Below, piece by piece: positions 20,311 through 46,720 of a stretch of 64,000 bases of DNA. Numbering within the stretch: the stretch's first letter is position 1; the number at the start of each line of letters is the position of its first letter. The stretch comes from Taklimakanibacter albus (GTDB lineage: Bacteria; Pseudomonadota; Alphaproteobacteria; Rhizobiales; Aestuariivirgaceae), in contig NZ_JAENHL010000006.1 in the NCBI RefSeq assembly GCF_016595235.1, forward strand, positions 372,001 to 436,000, read 5' to 3'. Position numbers and translations under genes: made by a program. Under the pieces are notes generated by a model, which worked only from the letters and a program-made list of their open reading frames with translations, was not told the origin of the DNA and did no database searches.

Positions 20311-23300
20311 TTAGTCGGCGGACTTGCGAAGCGCGGCAAGGACCGTGTCGAAAGTCTTTATGCGATCGGCGAAAATGTCGTCATATTGCTTTTCACCGGC
20401 TGCCCGGTGGAGTTCCCAGGCTGTCTGCACCGCTTTCCGGCCGCTTTCGACGACCGACTTGTTTCGGCTGCGATATCCCAGCAGAAGTTTCGCCATGCCG
20501 ATATCAGCCTGGGTGGCAGCCCATTTCAGAGGCGCACGATCTCGCGTCCGAACGGTGAGCGATGCCTCATAGGCCTCGACAGACTCTGCAAGCAGGACTG
20601 TGCCGCCGAAACGCGCCCCGAGCGTCTGAAGCGCCATGCCCAGATTGTTTTGGGCCATAGCCCACTCATCCGGCGCGTGTTCGTATGTCCATTCGGACAG
20701 GGCCGCTTCAAAGGCCACCACCGCCAGCATGCTGGCGATCATGCTGTCCTGCTGCTGTCCGAGTGTCCATAGAGCGAGGCCGAGATCATTCTGCGCTTCC
20801 GCCCAGTCCAGGGGCACGCGGCGGCGCTCCAATTCGTTCAGCGCCGCGCGTGTGGAAATGATCGCCAGCCGAAGCGGCACCGCGTCACCCTGAAGCTCGC
20901 CAAGCGCGCGCAGGGCACTGCCAAGATCAGTTTGCGTATTGGCCCATTGCAGTGGCGATCTTTCGCGGGTTCTCTCGGTGAGCGCGGCATTGTAAGCCGC
21001 GATGGCCCTAAGCAGCAGGTTCGCGTCGTGCTTCCGATAGCCAAGAGTGGCGAGGGCCTGGCCGAGATTATTCTGGAGCATGGCCCATTGCGAAGGGGCG
21101 GTTCCACGGGTCGTCACGGTGAGCGCGGCCTCATAGGCGGAAATCGCCTTCAGAACGGTATCGTCGCTTGCTTCCAGGCGATCGCGGCTCAGGAGCGCCG
21201 CAGCCAGGCTGTTCTGAGCCGAAGCCCAGAGGAGAGGATACCGATCGCGTGGCCACTCGGCGAGCACCGCTTCGAAGGCCGTCTCGGCCTGGCGCAGATG
21301 GGAGATGTCGCTTTTGCGCTCACCCAGCAATGTCATGGCAATGCCGAGGTTGTACTGAGTTTCGGCCCAGTCGAATGGCATGCTCTCGCGCTTTCGGACG
21401 GAGAGGGCCGTCTCATAGGCGCTGATTGCCCGGATGAGGGGGGCTGTGTCGCCGTCGCGATCAGCCAGACGCTTGAGAGCATTGCCGAGGTTGTTCTGAG
21501 CGGCGGACCAGTGGCGCCGGGACGAATCCTTCTGCAGCTCGGGCAATGCTGTTTCATAGGCGGCGACAGACCTGACGAGCAGGTTGCGATCGCCGTCCAA
21601 TTTGCTGAGTGACTGAAGAGCATTGCCGAGATTGACTTGCGCTACCGCCCATTCGTTCGCCAGGTTTCTCCGGCTCAGGATCGCAAGTGCGGTCTCGAGC
21701 CCCTTGACGGCCTTGGCAAGCATCGCGGCATCGCCTCTGCGATCCCCGAGCGCCGTCAGCGATACGCTGAGATCGACCTGAAGCAATGCCCAGGGCGCCG
21801 AATATTCGACCTTCGGACCGGCGCCCAAGGCCTCATAGACTGAAATGGCCCTTTCCAATGCTTGATTGTCTCCGGCGAATTCTCCGTATTGCGACAGCGC
21901 GGCAATCTGTTCGATCCGGTAGAGGAACGCATGTCTGTCGTCCCGGCCTGTCAGTTGTTCGAAGGCCTTCTCGTATTTCTGCGAAGCCAGAAGATAGTCG
22001 AAGGCGAGGATCGCCGTCGCGGCTTCCTCGGCATAGGTCGAGGCGATTTCGGTCCGGTCGGCCATTACTTCCGCCTCGCGTCGATCAAGCGTCGTGTCGA
22101 GCTCATCGGCGCGTGCGCTGGCCTTGGCGCGATAGTCCTTGGCGAGTGCTATGGCGCCTTCGGCCTGGGCCCGGTCCGCCAATCCTGCAAGGCGGTTGAG
22201 CTCGGGATCCTTGCGCAGGGAGACGACCTTTTCCGCCAGAAGCTTCTTGAGCGCCTCGGCACCGCTGCGCAGTTGCGCGTCGATCTCCCCAGGCCCCTTC
22301 GTCGTGTCTACCTGCAATTCGCGCAGCATGCCGTAAAGTGGATCGAGTGGCAGCGACATGTCTCTGGCGAGTCCCTCGACGGACGCCCGCATGTCTTGCG
22401 GCGTCGCGGCAATGGAGAGCAGGAGCTTGCGCCTCTCGCCGACAAGCAGCGCGTCGTCGGAAGTAAGCTCCAGTGGCTTCCCGCCGAAACTCAAGAAGCG
22501 CCGCAGGCTGGCATTGACCCAGGGCCGCTGCCGCGTTCCCGTGGTGAGATAGACCTCCTCGGTGACCAGGGTCATCATCTGGGCGAAGTCATAGCCCTGA
22601 TTGGCGCCAAGATGCTTGAGGAGGGCGGCGGCATAGGGGCTGCTGGCGCCTTCGGTACCGTCGAGCGCGACCTGGCCCGGCTCAGCCGCGAAGCCGATCA
22701 CCTCGCCGATATTGTCCGGCAAAGATTGGGCGGACTCCACGATCACGGCGCCGCGCGGCGCTCCCAGACCGGCGGCGGCAATGGGCATGCCGGCAGAATG
22801 CCCATCGCGTCTGACCAGCGCTTCCCGGGGATAGGGATTGGACCGGCAGGCATCGAGCAGAAGAATTGTGATCCGGGCTTTATTGCGCAGCTGTTCCAGA
22901 ACCGCTTGCAGCGAGATGAGACGGCTGTCGGCGGCGGCGAGCGAGGCCTCGTCGGCATCGATCGGGAGCAAATAGTTGGTACCGCCCGCTTCGATGCCAT
23001 GGCCGGAATAATAAACCAGCGCCACATCGGCGCCGCCGGCATCCTCGATGAACGCCTCGATCGACCGGGCGAGCTTCCGGCCGTTCTCATTGGTGGCGAG
23101 CTCCGTCTCGAAGCCAAGCCGGGCAAGGAGGTCTTCGATCTCACGGGCGTCACGTTCGGGATTGGGCAGGGCCGGGAGTTTTTCATAGGCCGATTGGCCG
23201 ATTACCAGCGCCACCCCCTTCAGCGGCCCGTTCTCCTGTGCAACGGCAATCCCGGTAGAAAACGACGTAGACAGCAGTGCCCACAGCACAGCTGCCGCAG

Positions 23301-23331
23301 TCCGGAGCACCACGCCGGCGAATTTTCGCAT
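20311..23331 (-). CDS. Secreted caspase-fold (C14) protein with ten TPR-like repeats
   Basis: A 1,006-residue protein. Residues 1-31 are a signal peptide ending AVA. Residues about 36-280 are a caspase/metacaspase-like domain with catalytic H111 in 'YYSGHG' and C162 in 'LLLDACRSNP'. A helical linker follows (about 290-500). Residues about 514-970 hold ten repeats of roughly 57 residues, each starting W-A-x-x-Q-x-N-L-G and ending in an 'A..AYEAAL' helix, as in TPR arrays. It should be periplasmic or exported; substrate and role are unknown. A paralogue of the same length and order lies at 35236-38259. Bacterial orthocaspases often serve stress or cell-death functions, but nothing here proves that. 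Confidence 0.9.
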   Translation of the reverse strand: MRKFAGVVLRTAAAVLWALLSTSFSTGIAVAQENGPLKGVALVIGQSAYEKLPALPNPERDAREIEDLLARLGFETELATNENGRKLARSIEAFIEDAGGADVALVYYSGHGIEAGGTNYLLPIDADEASLAAADSRLISLQAVLEQLRNKARITILLLDACRSNPYPREALVRRDGHSAGMPIAAAGLGAPRGAVIVESAQSLPDNIGEVIGFAAEPGQVALDGTEGASSPYAAALLKHLGANQGYDFAQMMTLVTEEVYLTTGTRQRPWVNASLRRFLSFGGKPLELTSDDALLVGERRKLLLSIAATPQDMRASVEGLARDMSLPLDPLYGMLRELQVDTTKGPGEIDAQLRSGAEALKKLLAEKVVSLRKDPELNRLAGLADRAQAEGAIALAKDYRAKASARADELDTTLDRREAEVMADRTEIASTYAEEAATAILAFDYLLASQKYEKAFEQLTGRDDRHAFLYRIEQIAALSQYGEFAGDNQALERAISVYEALGAGPKVEYSAPWALLQVDLSVSLTALGDRRGDAAMLAKAVKGLETALAILSRRNLANEWAVAQVNLGNALQSLSKLDGDRNLLVRSVAAYETALPELQKDSSRRHWSAAQNNLGNALKRLADRDGDTAPLIRAISAYETALSVRKRESMPFDWAETQYNLGIAMTLLGERKSDISHLRQAETAFEAVLAEWPRDRYPLLWASAQNSLAAALLSRDRLEASDDTVLKAISAYEAALTVTTRGTAPSQWAMLQNNLGQALATLGYRKHDANLLLRAIAAYNAALTERTRERSPLQWANTQTDLGSALRALGELQGDAVPLRLAIISTRAALNELERRRVPLDWAEAQNDLGLALWTLGQQQDSMIASMLAVVAFEAALSEWTYEHAPDEWAMAQNNLGMALQTLGARFGGTVLLAESVEAYEASLTVRTRDRAPLKWAATQADIGMAKLLLGYRSRNKSVVESGRKAVQTAWELHRAAGEKQYDDIFADRIKTFDTVLAALRKSAD

Positions 23332-25742: not shown

Positions 25743-26689
25743 TGTGTTCCCTTTCCAAGAGAGGCGAGCGCCGCTGCCGCGACCTTGAGGCCGGCCAGGG
25801 CATCCTGCGCGGTGACGATGCTGGGCCGCGTGCCGGTGCGTAGGCAGCTGACGAAATAGGAGTCTTCGTTGAAGAGCGAATCGTCCGGCCCGAATTCGGC
25901 GAGATCGATATGGCGGGGCGTGTCGCCATACTGGCGGATATGGGCGCCGGTCTCGAAATCGATGCCGCCGCGCTCGCCGACGATCTCGATGCGGTCAGGC
26001 GCCGCTTCACCCGGATATGTCCAGGAGGTCGCGAGCTGCCATACCGCGCCGTGATCGCCCCGCGCAGTCACCAGGGTCTGCGAGCGCTGCGCGCCTTCGG
26101 GACTTCGCCAAGCCCGGACCTCACTCGCCGAGCCGCCTGTCATCCACACGGCGAGATCGATGTCGTGGATCATCGTCATCATGATGGGATCGATGTCAGG
26201 GTAACGCACCGCATGGCTGTCGTCGCGATGGCGCCGGGCATAGAGCGAGAGCACGCGGCCGATCTCGCCCGACTTGATGATATCGGCGATGCGGCGATGC
26301 GGGGAAGAGAAGCGCAGCACATGGCCGGGCAGCACGAAGCCGGGTCCCTTTGCGTCGGCCTCGACGAGCATCTGCGCTTCGGCGGCCGTCATGGCCATCG
26401 GCTTTTCGACCAGCGCCGGAATGCCGAGCGCCAGAGCGCCGAGCGCCAGGGGCACATGCGTCTGGCCGGGTGAAGCGATGATGACGCCGTCAGGCCGGTG
26501 CTTTTCCAGCAAGGGCAGAATGTCGGCCCCCCGATGCAACACGCCATGCCGGTCGGCGGCGGTCTTTGCCGCGACTTCATTGCGGTCGGCGATGGCCACC
26601 ACCTCCACATCCGGAATACGGTCGATGACGCCCAGATGTTCCTGGCCGAAGAGACCGGCGCCGGCGAGAGCGAGTCTCACCACCATCAC
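25739..26689 (-). CDS. Gfo/Idh/MocA-family oxidoreductase
   Basis: A 316-residue NAD(P)-dependent dehydrogenase. The Rossmann motif 'LALAGAGLFGQEHLG' is near residue 5, and 'VEKPMAMTAAEA' holds the catalytic Lys of the EKP motif. 'DIDLAVWM' lies in the substrate domain. The family oxidises sugars, inositols, sugar acids and some amino acid derivatives. Its ATG overlaps the stop of the dehydratase gene (ATGA) and its stop overlaps the SDR start. Product assignment stays at family level. Confidence 0.9.
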   Translation of the reverse strand: MMVVRLALAGAGLFGQEHLGVIDRIPDVEVVAIADRNEVAAKTAADRHGVLHRGADILPLLEKHRPDGVIIASPGQTHVPLALGALALGIPALVEKPMAMTAAEAQMLVEADAKGPGFVLPGHVLRFSSPHRRIADIIKSGEIGRVLSLYARRHRDDSHAVRYPDIDPIMMTMIHDIDLAVWMTGGSASEVRAWRSPEGAQRSQTLVTARGDHGAVWQLATSWTYPGEAAPDRIEIVGERGGIDFETGAHIRQYGDTPRHIDLAEFGPDDSLFNEDSYFVSCLRTGTRPSIVTAQDALAGLKVAAAALASLGKGTQ

Positions 26690-27627
26690 ACGGTTCCTTC
26701 GGGACCGGCGCCGCAGACCAGCGCGCAGACATGTTTGGCGCCGGCGAGCTGCGGCAGGTTCTTGCGCAAGGCGGCGATGGAGGCCGCGCCCGAAAGATCG
26801 GCGGCGATGCCCATTTCGAACCAGAGGAAGCGCGAGGCTTCGGCCATTTCCTCGTCGGAGACGAGGACGATGTCGTCGACCGTGTCGCGCACCGTCTCAT
26901 AGATGCGCTCATCGGTGCGCCGGCAAGTCATGGTCGGCACCCGCGAGGTGACTTCGGCCAAGGTGACCACATGGCCGGCATCGATACTGGCCCTGAGGGT
27001 GGGCGATCCGACAGGCTCGATGCCGATGATGCGGATGTCGGGGCGTCGCGCCTTGAGCACTGTGCCGAGGCCCGAGATCAGGCCACCGCCGCCGATGGCG
27101 ATGAGGATCGCATCGATGTCGGAGAGGTCGTCGAGGATTTCGAGGCCGAGCGTGCCTTGCCCCGCGACGACGAGCGGGTCGGCGAAGGGATGGAAATAGG
27201 CGGCCCCCGTTTTCTTCGCATAGTCATGCGCCGCCTGGTTGGACTGGCTCCATTCGTCGCCGACGATCTCGACCTTGGCGTTCCAGGCCTTCATCTTGAC
27301 GACCTTGGCGGGCGAGACATTGGACGGCACGAAGATCGTTGCCGGCACCTTGGCGGCGAAGGCGGTGCGCGCCACCGCCAGCCCGTGATTGCCGCCGGAT
27401 GCGGTGGTGATGCCGGCCTTGATCTCGTCCTTGGCAGCGCCGAGCAGACGGTTCATGGCGCCGCGCGCCTTGAACGAGCCCGTCACCTGCAGGCATTCGA
27501 GCTTGAGCGTCACTTTCGGCTGGTGCGGAATGGCGGCCTGGAGCTGGTCCAGCGCCATGATCGGCGTACGCCTGATATGGGGAGCGATGCGCGAACGCGC
27601 CGCTTCGATGTCACGGATCGTGATTAT
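26686..27627 (-). CDS. Threonine dehydratase/EutB-like PLP enzyme with apparent AUA start
   Basis: A fold-type II PLP enzyme, 313 residues if read from 27627. The PLP lysine is in 'TGSFKARGAMNRL'; 'ASGGNHGLAVA' and 'IGGGGLISG' are cofactor motifs. The first usable ATG (27558) would remove the conserved first strand-helix. The frame stays open upstream and encodes 'ITIRDIEAARSRIAPHIRRT', the normal family N-terminus. No ATG, GTG or TTG is in frame there. Instead AAGGAG lies 7 nt before ATA at 27627-27625, inside an ATAA overlap with the upstream stop. Related EutB proteins act in ectoine use; the substrate here is unknown. Confidence 0.8.
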   Translation of the reverse strand: MITIRDIEAARSRIAPHIRRTPIMALDQLQAAIPHQPKVTLKLECLQVTGSFKARGAMNRLLGAAKDEIKAGITTASGGNHGLAVARTAFAAKVPATIFVPSNVSPAKVVKMKAWNAKVEIVGDEWSQSNQAAHDYAKKTGAAYFHPFADPLVVAGQGTLGLEILDDLSDIDAILIAIGGGGLISGLGTVLKARRPDIRIIGIEPVGSPTLRASIDAGHVVTLAEVTSRVPTMTCRRTDERIYETVRDTVDDIVLVSDEEMAEASRFLWFEMGIAADLSGAASIAALRKNLPQLAGAKHVCALVCGAGPEGTV

Positions 27628-28637
27628 GACAGGTCTCCTTCATAAAGTGAGGCGACGACGAGGCAGCAATTGCCGGGCTTCACCCGGCCGGGCTGGCGGC
27701 GGGAATAAAGAATGCCGTCGGCGTGATAATGCAGCGTGTCGGGCGGCCGCGCCGGATCCCACAGGCAATGGATGCGGCCTGCCGCTTCGCCGGCTTTCAC
27801 TTGCCGCCCATTGGCATGGAAGGGTTCGAAGACGCCATCCATCGTCGCATAGACATGTGCCTTGGTGCCGGCGAGGTCCAGGATGCGCCGGTCGCCCCTG
27901 GATTCCGGCTTCGTCGCCTGAGGCAGGACGCCCAGATGCGCCAGCACATTGCGCACGCCGCGGCGGCAGATGGCAAGCCCGTCGAGCGAGACGGTGCCGC
28001 CGCCACCCATCTCCGTGCCGACGGTGACGAGGCCGGCATGGCAGGCGGCCGCCGTCGCGGTGCGCGTATCGCCGTGATTGCTGATGACGACGGCGAGCGG
28101 CGCATCGAAAGCGAGCGCCGCGGCGGCATTGCGCCGGAACAGATCAGGATTATCGGTCGGCTCGACGATGGCGCTGGGCAGGATGTCGAGCGAGGAGCCG
28201 CCGGAATGGAGGTCGATGAAGGCATCGCCGCGCGGGAAGATCTCGCGCGCCATATAGGCCGAGATCTGTTGGGTGATGGTGCCCTTGGGATCGCCCGGGA
28301 AGGTGCGGTTGAAATTGAGCCCGTCGACGGGCGAGGTGCGCCTTCCGGCCATGACCGCATGCACATTGACCGCCGGCATCAGGATAAGGCGGCCCTGGAT
28401 CTCCTTGGGATCGAGATCGCGGATTAATTCGCTGATGGTGATCGGACCTTCATATTCATCGCCGTGATTGCCGCCTTCGATGATCACCGTCGGCCCCTTG
28501 CCATGGGCGATGACACAAAGCGGAATTTGAGTGACGCCCCAGGCATCGTCATGCGGCGAATGCGGGATGCTGACGAAGCCGGTCTGCTTGCCCGGCCGGT
28601 CGAAGTCGATGGTGGTGAAGCCTGAGGCGCCGCTCAT
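27624..28637 (-). CDS. Succinylglutamate desuccinylase/aspartoacylase-family deacylase (DoeB-like)
   Basis: A 337-residue zinc-dependent amidohydrolase of the AstE/AspA family. Zinc ligands are in 'GGNHGDEYEGP' (His, Glu) and 'DLHSGG' (His); 'GLNFNRTFPGD' is the substrate-binding block. The overall pattern is like DoeB, which deacetylates N-acetyl-diaminobutyrate in ectoine breakdown. It overlaps the DUF4432 stop by 4 bp and the dehydratase by 4 bp. No ectoine hydrolase is nearby, so an N-acyl amino acid other than the ectoine intermediate is possible. Confidence 0.85.
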   Translation of the reverse strand: MSGASGFTTIDFDRPGKQTGFVSIPHSPHDDAWGVTQIPLCVIAHGKGPTVIIEGGNHGDEYEGPITISELIRDLDPKEIQGRLILMPAVNVHAVMAGRRTSPVDGLNFNRTFPGDPKGTITQQISAYMAREIFPRGDAFIDLHSGGSSLDILPSAIVEPTDNPDLFRRNAAAALAFDAPLAVVISNHGDTRTATAAACHAGLVTVGTEMGGGGTVSLDGLAICRRGVRNVLAHLGVLPQATKPESRGDRRILDLAGTKAHVYATMDGVFEPFHANGRQVKAGEAAGRIHCLWDPARPPDTLHYHADGILYSRRQPGRVKPGNCCLVVASLYEGDLS

Positions 28638-34345: not shown

Positions 34346-35239
34346 TCACTTGCCGGCTAGCTTGTCTTCGATCTCGGTGATTTTCGCGGCCGCGGCTTGG
34401 GCGCGGGCGGCATTGCCGACGTGCACGAAAGCATCGCGGGCCTGCTTGAAAGAGGCGAGCGCGGCCTTGAGGGTGTCCTTGTCGGCGAGCCTCTCGCCCA
34501 GACGACGTTGCACCTCGCCGATCACCTGCTGCGTCTCCGCCCATTTTTGCGGATCGCTGTCGCGTGAGACGACGTCGAGCGTTGCCGTAAAAGCGGCGAG
34601 GGCCGCCTTCAGGCTATCCGTGCCCTTGTCGTGCAATTCCGCTTTGACGAAATAGGTCGCGCCGATGCTCAGCTGTATGGCGGCCCATTCGGATTTGAAC
34701 TTGTCCTTGTCGTAGACCGTGAGGGCGGCGTGCCAGGCGGTCATGGCCTCATCATATTTGTCGAGCTGGCCGCGCAGCGCCAGATAGGCGAAGGCCTCAC
34801 CGAGCCGGTTCTGCAGCGTGGCCCATTCCATTGGCTGGCGCTCCGCCGAATATTCGCTGAGCGCCGCGCGATAGGCGACGACAGCTTCCTCGATCTCCTT
34901 CACGCGCTTGAAGCGGGCACCGGCATCATAAAGGACATTGCCGAGGAGCGCCTGGGTGACGGCCCATTGCTGCGGCGCCTGCTCGCGGCCGGCGAGTTCC
35001 AATGCGCTTCTGTAGAAACCGGCGGCGCGTTGCAGCGCCTCCAGCGTGCCCTGGCGGGCGAGGAGATTCCCGGCATCGATCCTGTGGCGCCAGGCGAGCT
35101 CGATCTCGCCGCGCTGCACGGCCTGATCGGCGGCCTCCGAATGCTGCCGGATTTCCGGGCTGTCAGGCGTGGGCGCCGATTCCTGGGCCACGGCGCCGAT
35201 GGTGCCAAGCAGGAAGAAAGCGAGAGCGGCTAATCTCAT
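34346..35239 (-). CDS. Small secreted TPR protein
   Basis: A 297-residue protein with a signal peptide (MRLAALAFFLLGTIGAVAQ). At least four repeats with a W-A-x-x-Q start, such as 'WATLQNRLGEAFAYLALRG', resemble those of the neighbouring caspase-TPR protein, but there is no caspase domain. Its ATG at 35239 overlaps the stop of that gene by 4 bp (ATGA), so the two are translationally coupled. I reject a longer reading to 35725, which is shadow of the larger gene. A partner, regulator or inhibitor of the caspase-TPR protein is plausible but untested. Confidence 0.88.
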   Translation of the reverse strand: MRLAALAFFLLGTIGAVAQESAPTPDSPEIRQHSEAADQAVQRGEIELAWRHRIDAGNLLARQGTLEALQRAAGFYRSALELAGREQAPQQWAVTQALLGNVLYDAGARFKRVKEIEEAVVAYRAALSEYSAERQPMEWATLQNRLGEAFAYLALRGQLDKYDEAMTAWHAALTVYDKDKFKSEWAAIQLSIGATYFVKAELHDKGTDSLKAALAAFTATLDVVSRDSDPQKWAETQQVIGEVQRRLGERLADKDTLKAALASFKQARDAFVHVGNAARAQAAAAKITEIEDKLAGK

Positions 35240-38200
35240 GGCTTGCTCGCCAGTGCTTGCTTGATGATTTCGATTTTCTTGTTGACGATATTGACCATGC
35301 CCCAGGCCATGAGGCCGCCTTTGCCATAGCCGATCTTGGCCTTCTCGAACTGGGCGAGGGAGGTTTCGAACGCCTTCTTGTCGGTACGCCGCGTACCGAA
35401 ACCCCAATAGACGTCGCCGATACCGTTCTGAACCATTGCCCATTGCATCGGCGTCTCTTCGAGCGTGTAGACTTCCAGAGCGGCATTGAAGGCGATCAGC
35501 GCCGTCTCGTAACTCTCGGTGCCCTTCTCGAAATTGGCGATCATATTGAGCGAGTTGCCGATATTGAACTGTGCCTGCGCCCATTCGAGCGGGCCGTTTT
35601 CCTTGGTCAGGATGGTGAGAGCGGCGCGCTTCGCCGCGATCGACTCCTTGAGCTTTTCGACCCCGCCGCCGCCGAACCCGATGGATTCGAGCGCTGTGCC
35701 CATCATGCTCTGCGCCGTGGCCCATTGCATGGGCGTGCGTTCGACGGTGAGCTCGCTGAGGGCCAGCCGATAGGCTGCGACCGATTCATCCAATTTCGCC
35801 GGGTCATTGTTCAGCTTGCCTAATGTCTGCAGCACATTTCCCAGATTGAGCTGTGTTGTTGCCCAATCGAGCGGAGCATGTTCGCGGCTATAGACGCCGA
35901 ATAGGTCTTTGTAGATGGCCATTGCCTCTTCAAGACGCTTGCCGTCCATGTTGCGCTGGCCCAGATGCTGCAGGGCGCTGGCGAGATTATTCTGCACCGC
36001 TGCCCAGTCGACCGGTGCCCGTTCGCGCGTGATCTCTCCTGTCGCCTCGCGGAATATCTTTGCAGCTTCCTCCAGTTCGGTCGTGCCGGCGACGCGGGTA
36101 CCGATTTGTGTAAGCGCTCCTCCCAGGTTGGTCATGGTGGACCCCCACTGCAAAGGCACCTTATCGCGCGTGCGGACTTCGAGCGCGGCGCGGAAGGTGT
36201 TGACGGCCTCCTTCAGTATGGGGAGATCATTTTTGCGGGCACCCAGGACGTTGAGTGTGTTGCCCAGATTGTTCTGGAGTACGCCCCAGCGGTTGGACTC
36301 GGCATCGCGGCTGATCGCAGAGAGGCCAGCTCGATAGGCGGCAGCGGCCTCGACCAGGCGCGTGTCGCTACCTTCGCGCTCACCAAGTGTATATAGTGCG
36401 ATGCCGAGATTGTTCTGCGAGTCCGACCAGTCGACCGGGGTTTTCTCGCGGCTCCTAACTTCGAGCACGGCGCGATAGGCAGCGACCGCTTCCTCAAGTT
36501 GCTTCGAATCGATCTGACGCTTCCCAAGATTCAGCAGCGCATTGCCGAGGTTGTTCTGCGTCGCCGCCCAGTTGACCGGATCAGACTGGCGGGTGAGCAC
36601 GGCCAGAGAATCGCGGAAAATCTGCGCCGCCTGTTCGAGCTGATTTTTGTCGCCGGCCCGCTCGGCCAAATTGAGATAGGCAACGCCCATATTGTTACGG
36701 GTGATCGCCCAGTCGGCGTTCTTTTCACCCGCCGGAATGAAGGTGAGGATTTCCTCATATACGGCGATCGATTTCAGTAGCGCCGCGTTTTCGCCTTTCT
36801 GATAGCCATGCGAATTGAGCGCTTCGGCTTCGAGATTCTTGTAATTCCACTTGAGTTTTTCGTCCCACTTCTCGACCAGTGTGAAAGCCTTCGCATAGTC
36901 GCTTGCGGCGGCCATATAATCGAAAGCCAACGAAGCAGTTTCGGCGCGGCGCGCATAGATGGCTGCATCGGCGAGGCGCTTCTTCTTGACGGCTTCCTCC
37001 GCCGCATCTACGGCGCCCGCCGTGGCTTCGACGCGCTTCACGGCTTCATCGAGGAACTGCCGGGCCACGGTAATGGCGCCTTGCTCGATGGCACGGTCAG
37101 CGGCTGCGGCCATCTTCTTGATCTCGGGATCGTCGACATTGAGCGCCGCCCGCTCGGCCATCATCTTCTTGAGCGTCTCGGCTTGTCCTTCGAGGAGCTT
37201 TTCCAGTTCCTTGGGGTCCTTTGGAACATTGTCGATCCCCAGCGCGCGCAGGACACCATAAAGCGCACTCATCGGCACACCGCCCTTCTTGGCGATGCTT
37301 TCGACCTGCATGCGTTCGGGGGTCGGCAGATCGGCGATGGTGAGAAGCAGCTGCCGGCGCTCTCCATTGATGAGGCCTTCCTCGCCTTCGGGCTCATCGG
37401 GTGCGACGCCCAGATAGAGCATGCGGCGCAGGCTTTCATTCACCCAGGGACGCTGGCGCGTGTCGGTCGAGAGATAAACCTCTTCCGTCACCATGCGCAT
37501 GACCGAGCCGAGCTCGGCGCCTTTCATCGCCGAGAGATGGCGGAGCAGGGCCGCCGCATAGGGGCTGTTGCCGCCAACGGCACCATCGAGCGCCGGGCGT
37601 CCGGGCTCGGCCGCGAAGCCGATCACGGTGCCGAGATTGTCGGTGGCGGCAGGGGCTTGCTCGACGACCGCGGCGCCACGCGGCGCGCCGAGGCCGCTGA
37701 CGGTAACCGGCTGTGGCGGGCTGTCCGGCGTCGCCTTGAGCTGTGCCGTGGCCGGGAATGGATTGGTGCGGCACGCATCGACCAGCACGATCACCACCGG
37801 CACGATGGCTTTCAGCTTGTCGACCACCTGGCTGAGGGAGACGAGCTCTTCGCTGGCATTGCCGAGTGAGGCGTCATCGGCATTGACGGGCACGAGATAG
37901 TTCTCGCCGCCGGCCTCGATGCCGTGGCCTGAATAATACAGAAACGCGATATCGGCGCCCTCGGCGTCCTCGACGAAACGTTCGAGATCGCGCGACAGCT
38001 TGGACGCATCGCGGTCGGTCACGGCGCGCCCGTCGAAGCCCAGATCAGTCAGGAGCTTGGACATGTCGCGCGCGTCATTGGCGGGATTGGGAAGCGGCGT
38101 GATGTGGGTGTATTTCGACTGCCCGATCACCAAAGCGACGCCCTTCAGCGTCTTCGGCTCCTCGGCCTCAGCGGCGGTGCTGAGAATGACAGCAATGAAA

Positions 38201-38259
38201 AGAGCGAGAAACGCACCGATGGCCTGTCGTGTGTTCCAGGCCAGAGATAGAGGCATCAT
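35236..38259 (-). CDS. Secreted caspase-fold (C14) protein with ten TPR-like repeats, second copy
   Basis: A 1,007-residue paralogue of the protein encoded at 20311-23331. A signal peptide ends near residue 32 (AEA). The caspase-like domain has H112 in 'YYSGHG' and C163 in 'LVDACRTNP'. Shared elements include 'LKGVALVIGQS' and 'TRQRPWVN'. About ten TPR-like repeats follow from residue about 515, for example 'WAATQNNLGNALLNLGKRQ'. The catalytic pair is kept in both copies. It is coupled to the TPR-only gene downstream. Cellular role is unknown. Confidence 0.9.
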   Translation of the reverse strand: MMPLSLAWNTRQAIGAFLALFIAVILSTAAEAEEPKTLKGVALVIGQSKYTHITPLPNPANDARDMSKLLTDLGFDGRAVTDRDASKLSRDLERFVEDAEGADIAFLYYSGHGIEAGGENYLVPVNADDASLGNASEELVSLSQVVDKLKAIVPVVIVLVDACRTNPFPATAQLKATPDSPPQPVTVSGLGAPRGAAVVEQAPAATDNLGTVIGFAAEPGRPALDGAVGGNSPYAAALLRHLSAMKGAELGSVMRMVTEEVYLSTDTRQRPWVNESLRRMLYLGVAPDEPEGEEGLINGERRQLLLTIADLPTPERMQVESIAKKGGVPMSALYGVLRALGIDNVPKDPKELEKLLEGQAETLKKMMAERAALNVDDPEIKKMAAAADRAIEQGAITVARQFLDEAVKRVEATAGAVDAAEEAVKKKRLADAAIYARRAETASLAFDYMAAASDYAKAFTLVEKWDEKLKWNYKNLEAEALNSHGYQKGENAALLKSIAVYEEILTFIPAGEKNADWAITRNNMGVAYLNLAERAGDKNQLEQAAQIFRDSLAVLTRQSDPVNWAATQNNLGNALLNLGKRQIDSKQLEEAVAAYRAVLEVRSREKTPVDWSDSQNNLGIALYTLGEREGSDTRLVEAAAAYRAGLSAISRDAESNRWGVLQNNLGNTLNVLGARKNDLPILKEAVNTFRAALEVRTRDKVPLQWGSTMTNLGGALTQIGTRVAGTTELEEAAKIFREATGEITRERAPVDWAAVQNNLASALQHLGQRNMDGKRLEEAMAIYKDLFGVYSREHAPLDWATTQLNLGNVLQTLGKLNNDPAKLDESVAAYRLALSELTVERTPMQWATAQSMMGTALESIGFGGGGVEKLKESIAAKRAALTILTKENGPLEWAQAQFNIGNSLNMIANFEKGTESYETALIAFNAALEVYTLEETPMQWAMVQNGIGDVYWGFGTRRTDKKAFETSLAQFEKAKIGYGKGGLMAWGMVNIVNKKIEIIKQALASKP

Positions 38260-45754: not shown

Positions 45755-46720
45755 CTAGGCGAGGGGAGTCCGCCCCTGCAGCACCTGCGCGAATTTGCTG
45801 CTGTCGATATTGCCGCCCGAGAGAATGAGACCCACGCGCTTTCCCGCCATCTGCGCCTGCTCTTTGACGAGGGCGGCAAGCGCCGCGGCGCCGGCGCCTT
45901 CGGTGACATTATGGGTGGCGCGGAAATAGAGCCGCATGGCCTCGGCGATCTCATCTTCGCTCACGTCGACGACACGGTCGGCGCCTTTGACGATCATCGC
46001 GAGAGCGTCGGCATTGGGCACGCGCACCGCCATCCCGTCGGCGAAGGAGAGAGCTGAATTGGTCGGCACTGCGCGGCCCTGGGCGAATGACAGTTTGTAG
46101 GAATTGGCCTTCTCGGCGACCACGCCGACGACTTTCGTCTTGAGACCGAGCAGATCGCGCACCGCGATGACGCCGCAAATGCCGGAGCCCAGTCCGATCG
46201 GCACGTAGACCGTGTCGAGGTCGCCGGCGCCCTTGAACAGCTCATGGGCGTAGGTCGCGACGCCCATCACCAGCTCGGGATGGAAGGAAGCGACCATGTC
46301 GAGACCTTGCTCACGGCCAAGCCGCATCGCTGTCTCGCGCGCCTCGTCGAAATCACTGCCACCTTCGATCAGCGTGCAGCCTAAGGCCCGCATCGCCTCG
46401 TTCTTCTCGACCGAATTGCCCTTGGGCACCACCACCGTCGCCTCGATGCCCTCGCGCCTCGCGGCGAAGGGAATCGACTGGCCGTGATTGCCGCGCGTCG
46501 CGGTGATGACGCCATTGGTCTCGCCGCGCTCCTTGCGCAGGTGCATATGGACGAGGCCGCCCCTGACCTTGAAGGCGCCGACCGGCGTGTGGTTCTCGTG
46601 CTTGACCCAGCATTCGCATTGGGTTGCCGCGGCGAGAAGGGGCCAGGCATATTGCGGCGTGGGCGGCATCGCCGCATAGACGATGCCCTGGGCGCGTTCG
46701 ATATCGGCGTGTTTCAGCAT
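45755..46720 (-). CDS. Threonine/serine dehydratase-like PLP enzyme
   Basis: A 321-residue fold-type II PLP enzyme. The PLP lysine is in 'TPVGAFKVRGG', 'TRGNHGQSIPFAAR' binds the cofactor phosphate region, and 'IGLGSGICG' is the glycine loop. It differs clearly from the EutB-like enzyme at 26686-27627 and lacks a regulatory ACT domain. It probably deaminates a hydroxy amino acid such as threonine, serine or a relative. It is divergent from fabD, with 117 bp between them. Confidence 0.87.
   Translation of the reverse strand: MLKHADIERAQGIVYAAMPPTPQYAWPLLAAATQCECWVKHENHTPVGAFKVRGGLVHMHLRKERGETNGVITATRGNHGQSIPFAARREGIEATVVVPKGNSVEKNEAMRALGCTLIEGGSDFDEARETAMRLGREQGLDMVASFHPELVMGVATYAHELFKGAGDLDTVYVPIGLGSGICGVIAVRDLLGLKTKVVGVVAEKANSYKLSFAQGRAVPTNSALSFADGMAVRVPNADALAMIVKGADRVVDVSEDEIAEAMRLYFRATHNVTEGAGAAALAALVKEQAQMAGKRVGLILSGGNIDSSKFAQVLQGRTPLA

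Follow-up and report, generated by a model that had tools for sequence, protein, structure and literature searches.

A probable AUA start codon at a conserved ATAA stop/start overlap in a dehydratase gene of Taklimakanibacter albus

We analyzed a 64,000-nucleotide (nt) stretch of the Taklimakanibacter albus genome (positions 372,001 to 436,000 of contig NZ_JAENHL010000006.1; hereafter the window, whose numbering is used below) and focused on a minus-strand gene for a serine/threonine dehydratase-like protein of the PALP fold (fold type II, dependent on pyridoxal 5'-phosphate, PLP). The gene occupies positions 26686-27627 and encodes 313 amino acids (aa) counted from an ATA codon, as judged from its translation, its match to the Pfam PALP family and the conservation of its orthologs, and no canonical start codon is compatible with its conserved N-terminus. 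We consider it likely, at a probability of roughly three in four, that this is a working gene initiated at the AUA at 27627-27625, and that a strong Shine-Dalgarno (SD) sequence and probable translational coupling to the deacylase gene upstream would offset the weak codon. AUA starts and 4-nt gene overlaps are each known; the unusual part is an ATAA overlap that is fixed across the genus genomes holding the gene.

The ATAA junction and its conservation

The gene upstream (27624-28637, minus strand), recognized from the list of open reading frames (ORFs) and from profile matches, encodes an AstE/AspA-type (DoeB-like) deacylase of 337 aa. At the junction of the two genes the minus strand reads CTTTATGAAGGAGACCTGTCATAATCACGATCCGTGAC, in which the four letters ATAA (27627-27624) hold both the ATA of the dehydratase (27627-27625) and the TAA stop of the deacylase (27626-27624). 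The dehydratase frame is open from there on (ATA ATC ACG ATC CGT GAC ATC GAA ...). Upstream, sequence comparison places an in-frame TGA at 27642-27640 that bounds the frame and is followed by AGG AGA CCT GTC ATA ATC; between this TGA and the ATG at 27558-27556 the frame contains no ATG, GTG or TTG. An SD sequence, AAGGAG (27640-27635), lies within the deacylase gene, with a spacer of 7 nt to the ATA. A preliminary description of this DNA had reported the shared ATAA, the missing canonical start and the position of AAGGAG, and our reading agrees with it on all three. Its further statement that most junctions of the operon are ATGA was somewhat strong: ORF coordinates give three 4-nt ATG overlaps in the gene run (31405/31402, 28637/28634 and 25742/25739), and the junctions other than these and the ATAA are of other kinds.

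We then compared the junction among five genomes of the genus, including that of T. albus itself (G000). An ortholog of the dehydratase was present in three of them, namely G000, G002 (95% protein identity) and G004 (91%), and was not found in the other two, in which the best matches reached at most 53% identity and of which one is 87% complete. All three orthologs carry TATGAAGGAGACCTGTC-ATA-ATC with an identical SD sequence and spacer. Because the same junction recurs in every sister ortholog, the ATA is neither an assembly error nor a recent change. Sequencing reads with a G at 27625, which the preliminary description had named as an observation that would overturn an ATA start while proposing this comparison of sister genomes, are now unlikely, as three separate assemblies agree on ATA.

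To place the codon in a wider family, we examined 46 homologs: 3 from the genus, 2 further ones, 2 from the family, 29 from the order, 6 from the family of genome G083, 2 from the class and 2 from plasmid records. Dropped before this count were L033 (the same record as L009), L036 and L037 (27% identity), the second copies in G390 and G401, G214, the G001 match, and a 52% identical paralog of the T. albus genome, which has an ATG 5 codons 5' of the aligned ATC. A canonical start, assigned by rule as the nearest within 8 codons and not confirmed individually, was found in 42 of the 46 (33 ATG, 7 GTG, 2 TTG). In 36 of the 46 a canonical codon stood exactly at the position of the ATA in the alignment, usually in the pair NTG-ATC or NTG-ATT. 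The homologs with no canonical start were the three genus members with ATA and one with CTG (L035); ATA occurred at the aligned site in 0 of the 43 homologs from outside the genus. In a maximum-likelihood protein tree, the three ATA sequences formed one clade (support 100/99) beside sequences with ATG, GTG and TTG.

A single NTG-to-ATA change on the genus stem would explain this distribution. The ancestor would have had an NTG start in an NTGA overlap, of which the AUA would be the direct descendant, and one G-to-A change would have turned the upstream stop from TGA to TAA and the start from ATG to ATA at once. This origin had been put forward from the T. albus junction, and both the homologous start position and the single clade fit it.

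The CTG of L035 (L035:4001-4003, on contig SBAS01000068 of a metagenome-assembled genome labelled Nitrosomonadales) reads CTG-ATC at a CTGA overlap and is a second non-canonical start candidate in the family. Its nearest in-frame canonical codons are TTG TTG, 13-14 codons upstream and inside the upstream gene, and a GTG 6 codons downstream.

The homologs also bear on the idea that ribosomes shift by -1 as they finish the deacylase and so join the two products into a deacylase-dehydratase fusion protein. The two frames do stand in a -1 relation (TCA to ATA); however, by eye there is no slippery heptamer at GAC CTG TCA TAA, and separate canonical starts stand at or close to the site in 42 of the 46 homologs. 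On these two points we rejected the fusion, which we rate as highly improbable.

Selection before the first canonical start codon

To follow selection on the gene, we calculated dN/dS, the ratio of nonsynonymous to synonymous substitution rates, by the Nei-Gojobori method for the three species pairs of genus orthologs. Over the whole dehydratase gene the values were 0.098, 0.126 and 0.118, and over the 23 codons that run from ATA up to the first ATG they were 0.079, 0.130 and 0.242; the last 330 codons of the deacylase gave 0.052-0.127. These purifying values indicate that the codons before the first ATG evolve as protein and that the gene is not silenced. Two stretches that we take to be active-site motifs, SFKARG and ASGGNHG, are unchanged across the three ortholog translations. 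The partial silencing suggested earlier is thus not borne out, given dN/dS near 0.1 in all pairs, the intact motifs and an ATA common to three species. A sequencing error, or a recent start-loss mutation in a decaying gene, would need just the one base by which the junction differs from ATGA; we find this barely credible, since the same ATA stands in three separate assemblies of three species and the orthologs combine a dN/dS of 0.10-0.13 with no internal stops. Both the error and the pseudogene were therefore rejected.

The same region argues against translation only from the ATG at 27558-27556, which would yield a protein 23 residues shorter. G000 and G002 have no canonical codon before this ATG; in G004, however, it is replaced by CTG, preceded there by a GTG one codon earlier. 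Its predicted SD duplex in G000 is only -2.4 kcal/mol, within the range of -1.3 to -2.4 kcal/mol for the internal starts of the gene, and purifying selection acts on the 23 codons that precede it. Furthermore, the match to Pfam PALP starts at residue 14, and of 22 solved relatives (threonine deaminases and serine and aspartate racemases) 10 align from residues 2-5 and the others from 12-41, so a start at 27558 would cut off shared positions. We rejected this ATG as the main start and regard initiation there alone as very unlikely.

We surveyed 1.2 Mb of the contig (C6) against 1.2 Mb of G004, which gave 714 conserved coding ORFs, for genes with at least 8 aligned codons under purifying selection upstream of the first canonical start in both genomes, a criterion blind to genes in which another ATG closely follows the true start. 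At least 8 aligned pre-start codons were present in 139 of the 714 ORFs, and 9 of these 139 showed a purifying signal there, with the dehydratase gene and prfB as the clear cases. prfB (G000:C6:546476-547546, L106:6476-7546; 520.8 bits to TIGR00020 vs a cut-off of 370) has conserved coding sequence after an in-frame TGA and serves as a positive control, because the programmed frameshift of release factor 2 is known. In the dehydratase gene, only 13 of the 78 nt of the tested pre-start stretch overlap the deacylase. For the hits at 507772, 399627 (the deacylase) and 707460, 51/51, 45/45 and 34/45 pre-start nt lie inside a conserved upstream ORF. The hits at 725993 and 1093280 look like conserved leaders, each followed by an aligned ATG and covered by no other selected ORF; the hit at 861528 has 11 pre-start codons and no Pfam match. 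A Wzy_C-like ORF (G000:C6:721118-722566, minus strand; L115:1118-2566) has 27 aligned codons ahead of the first canonical G004 start, with a purifying ratio of 0.32 and no other selected ORF covering this stretch, and may possibly be a further unusual start.

Between conserved ORFs we also counted 131 in-frame coincidences of a stop and a codon within 4 nt, among them 54 ATGA, 12 GTGA, 12 CTGA and 4 TTGA in both genomes. We did not count the CTGA sites as CTG starts; eight have an ATG within the next two codons, and in the other four an ATG or GTG follows 4-8 codons later. ATAA occurred three times in G000, and the two cases besides the dehydratase junction read ATAATG, with a canonical ATG next.

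Predicted ribosome binding and candidate initiation codons

SD duplex energies were computed with the tail that we assumed for the anti-SD. A probable 3' end of the 16S rRNA in the T. albus genome, which carries CCTCCTTTC, the core of the anti-SD, is located roughly 1.5 kb ahead of position 1 of the window (G000:C6:370509-370528, minus strand; one match, with 3 mismatches to the expected pattern). The predicted duplex of the ATA sequences, -9.5 kcal/mol, ranked first among the 46 homologs, followed by -8.8 and -8.7 kcal/mol, whereas the five sister sequences (L040, L041, L071, L072 and L073) gave -2.5 to -6.7 kcal/mol. According to passages of Belinky et al. 2017 (PMC5622118), a weaker start codon goes with a stronger SD sequence; the likeness here is a weak start with a strong SD, and the difference is that their analysis covered AUG, GUG and UUG, other codons being omitted as few, while the codon here is AUA. 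Excerpts of PMC13009471 describe a very strong extended SD at the AUU start of the Staphylococcus aureus gene cvfC1, a second likeness.

We also considered a small hairpin that would pair the SD with the start codon (27645-27624, minus strand; -4.5 kcal/mol predicted). The evidence for it was weak, as 62 of 2000 mononucleotide shuffles reached the same stability, we saw no covariation, and the longer predicted fold of G004 does not use it; we did not retain it.

Initiation outside ATG, GTG and TTG has precedents, among them the AUU start of pcnB. S. aureus uses AUA in infC, ccpN and citZ, and in poor medium its non-canonical start sites, those of ccpN and citZ included, reach about 10% of AUG; in rich medium the ccpN AUA attains up to 30% (PMC13009471, in part). 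In Listeria rsbW reporters the order was ATG > ATA > ATT (PMC13068326, in part), and Streptomyces sigR starts at GTC (PMC5472188, in part). AUA is known to be a weak start, and very few proteins begin with it. Like infC, pcnB, sigR and ccpN/citZ, the dehydratase keeps a putative non-canonical start in relatives while the gene is otherwise intact; unlike them, it is a catabolic enzyme, and its start, as predicted from sequence, overlaps an upstream stop.

Within the order, we read the infC start site at 30 loci, from 58 genomes with a match, and found ATT (18), ATC (7) or ATA (3) before an RRP-type N-terminus at 28 of the 30, a few of which also carry a canonical codon in frame nearby. The translation machinery of the order evidently starts on ATT, ATC and ATA codons, as far as these sequences tell. 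In the genus of T. albus itself (L200-L204), infC reads TTG AGC ATA in all five genomes; the ATA aligns with the AUU, AUC and AUA infC starts of other genera, and the TTG two codons before it leaves two candidate starts.

The ATC seen at 7 of the 30 infC loci is of interest for the dehydratase too, since an AUC adjoins the AUA (27624-27622). Initiation there, one codon downstream in a UAAUC stop/start overlap and with the AUA unused, could be served by the same SD at a spacing of 10 nt, and the ATC is present in all three sister orthologs. However, the starts of the homologs align with the ATA, mostly with ATC or ATT as the second codon, so that the conserved ATC is non-specific evidence and would be retained in the protein in any case; a spacing of 7 nt is also nearer the usual optimum than 10. 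We judge an AUC start improbable.

For initiation at AUA, we reasoned as follows. A ribosome that has just finished the deacylase at its UAA, or a 30S subunit newly bound at AAGGAG, would most likely initiate on the AUA with the initiator tRNA even though the third position is mismatched. The poor codon-anticodon match would be offset by AAGGAG at 7 nt and probably by the just-terminated ribosomes at the overlapping UAA, and the enzyme would be made at a reduced yet sufficient level. Weak translation of the dehydratase and dependence on coupling, both raised previously, are plausible. Coupling at 4-nt NTGA overlaps is well documented (passages of PMC6728339 and PMC12548453), and the present pair is like such pairs in its 4-nt overlap, provided that AUA is the start, in an SD within the upstream gene and in its co-directional genes. 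It differs in having an ATA start and a TAA stop instead of an NTG start and a TGA stop, and thus falls outside the NTGA class. ATAA as a term is absent from the main text of PMC6728339, and among the papers listed by our literature searches on AUA/ATA starts and ATAA overlaps none dealt with ATAA stop/start junctions.

Several points weigh against initiation at AUA with a compensating SD. The adjoining AUC could draw on the same SD. The three ATA sequences represent one evolutionary event, and first place in predicted SD strength is a rank with no significance test attached. Passages of PMC5622118 report no significant difference in SD conservation between start codons in alphaproteobacteria. 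The invariance of 24 nt at the junction is ordinary, as 5% of the 24-nt windows in the two genes are invariant across the three species. In the letters ATA, the first A also closes a TCA serine codon and the TA also opens the TAA stop; among 530 of the 714 ORFs, G000 and G004 keep 105 of 423 TCA codons and 48 of 89 TAA stops, and the chance of keeping both would be about 0.13 if independent, only mildly unusual.

The AUA may even be kept by selection for its weakness, as a throttle that holds the ratio of dehydratase to deacylase low through coupled re-initiation at ATAA and places the enzyme under the control of IF3, and so of translation status, as proposed for S. aureus ccpN. We hold this to be unlikely, if still a serious candidate. 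Sensitivity to IF3 would here be an analogy with the infC and sigR literature, and the only mildly unusual TCA and TAA retention, the ordinary 24-nt invariance and the weakly supported hairpin limit the case for active keeping of the codon. If it were true, ATAA would be a functional junction class that annotation pipelines have overlooked.

For initiation at AUA as such, comparison alone points to a start fixed in the genus with a stronger predicted SD than in any homolog examined, and a simple two-gene construct could test directly for compensatory evolution at a non-canonical start. ATG, GTG and TTG are the starts that gene callers mostly expect (PMC5472188, in part), so genes with AUA-type starts are easily shortened in annotation and weak starts go unseen. 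The junction suggests a cheap screen for ATAA overlaps with conserved protein upstream of any canonical start.

Protein family and neighboring genes

The dehydratase matches Pfam PALP (PF00291) at 263.5 bits vs a gathering score of 35 (3.2e-78). Its best NCBIfam model, PRK08246, gave 283 bits vs a cut-off of 331, and the EutB models NF005680 (224.4 vs 413 bits) and TIGR02991 (203.9 vs 413.35 bits) also stayed below theirs. The protein is a fold type II PLP dehydratase of the PALP family, and the name EutB-like, used in the preliminary description, captures this resemblance; as a label it is loose, at 204-224 bits vs cut-offs of 413, and denotes no assignment. The deacylase is likewise below the DoeB cut-off (277 vs 403 bits). 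The pair resembles the hydroxyectoine EutB/DoeB pair in that a dehydratase adjoins an AstE/AspA-type deacylase, and differs from it in that both proteins score below the curated cut-offs.

A distant paralog of the PALP-type dehydratase (27% identity) is encoded in the same window at 45815-46708 on the minus strand (G000:C6:417815-418708). The operon lies between two minus-strand genes (20311-23331 and 35236-38259) whose similar products, of 1006 and 1007 aa, each have, by eye from the ORF translations, a caspase-like N-terminus and a repeat-like C-terminal part.

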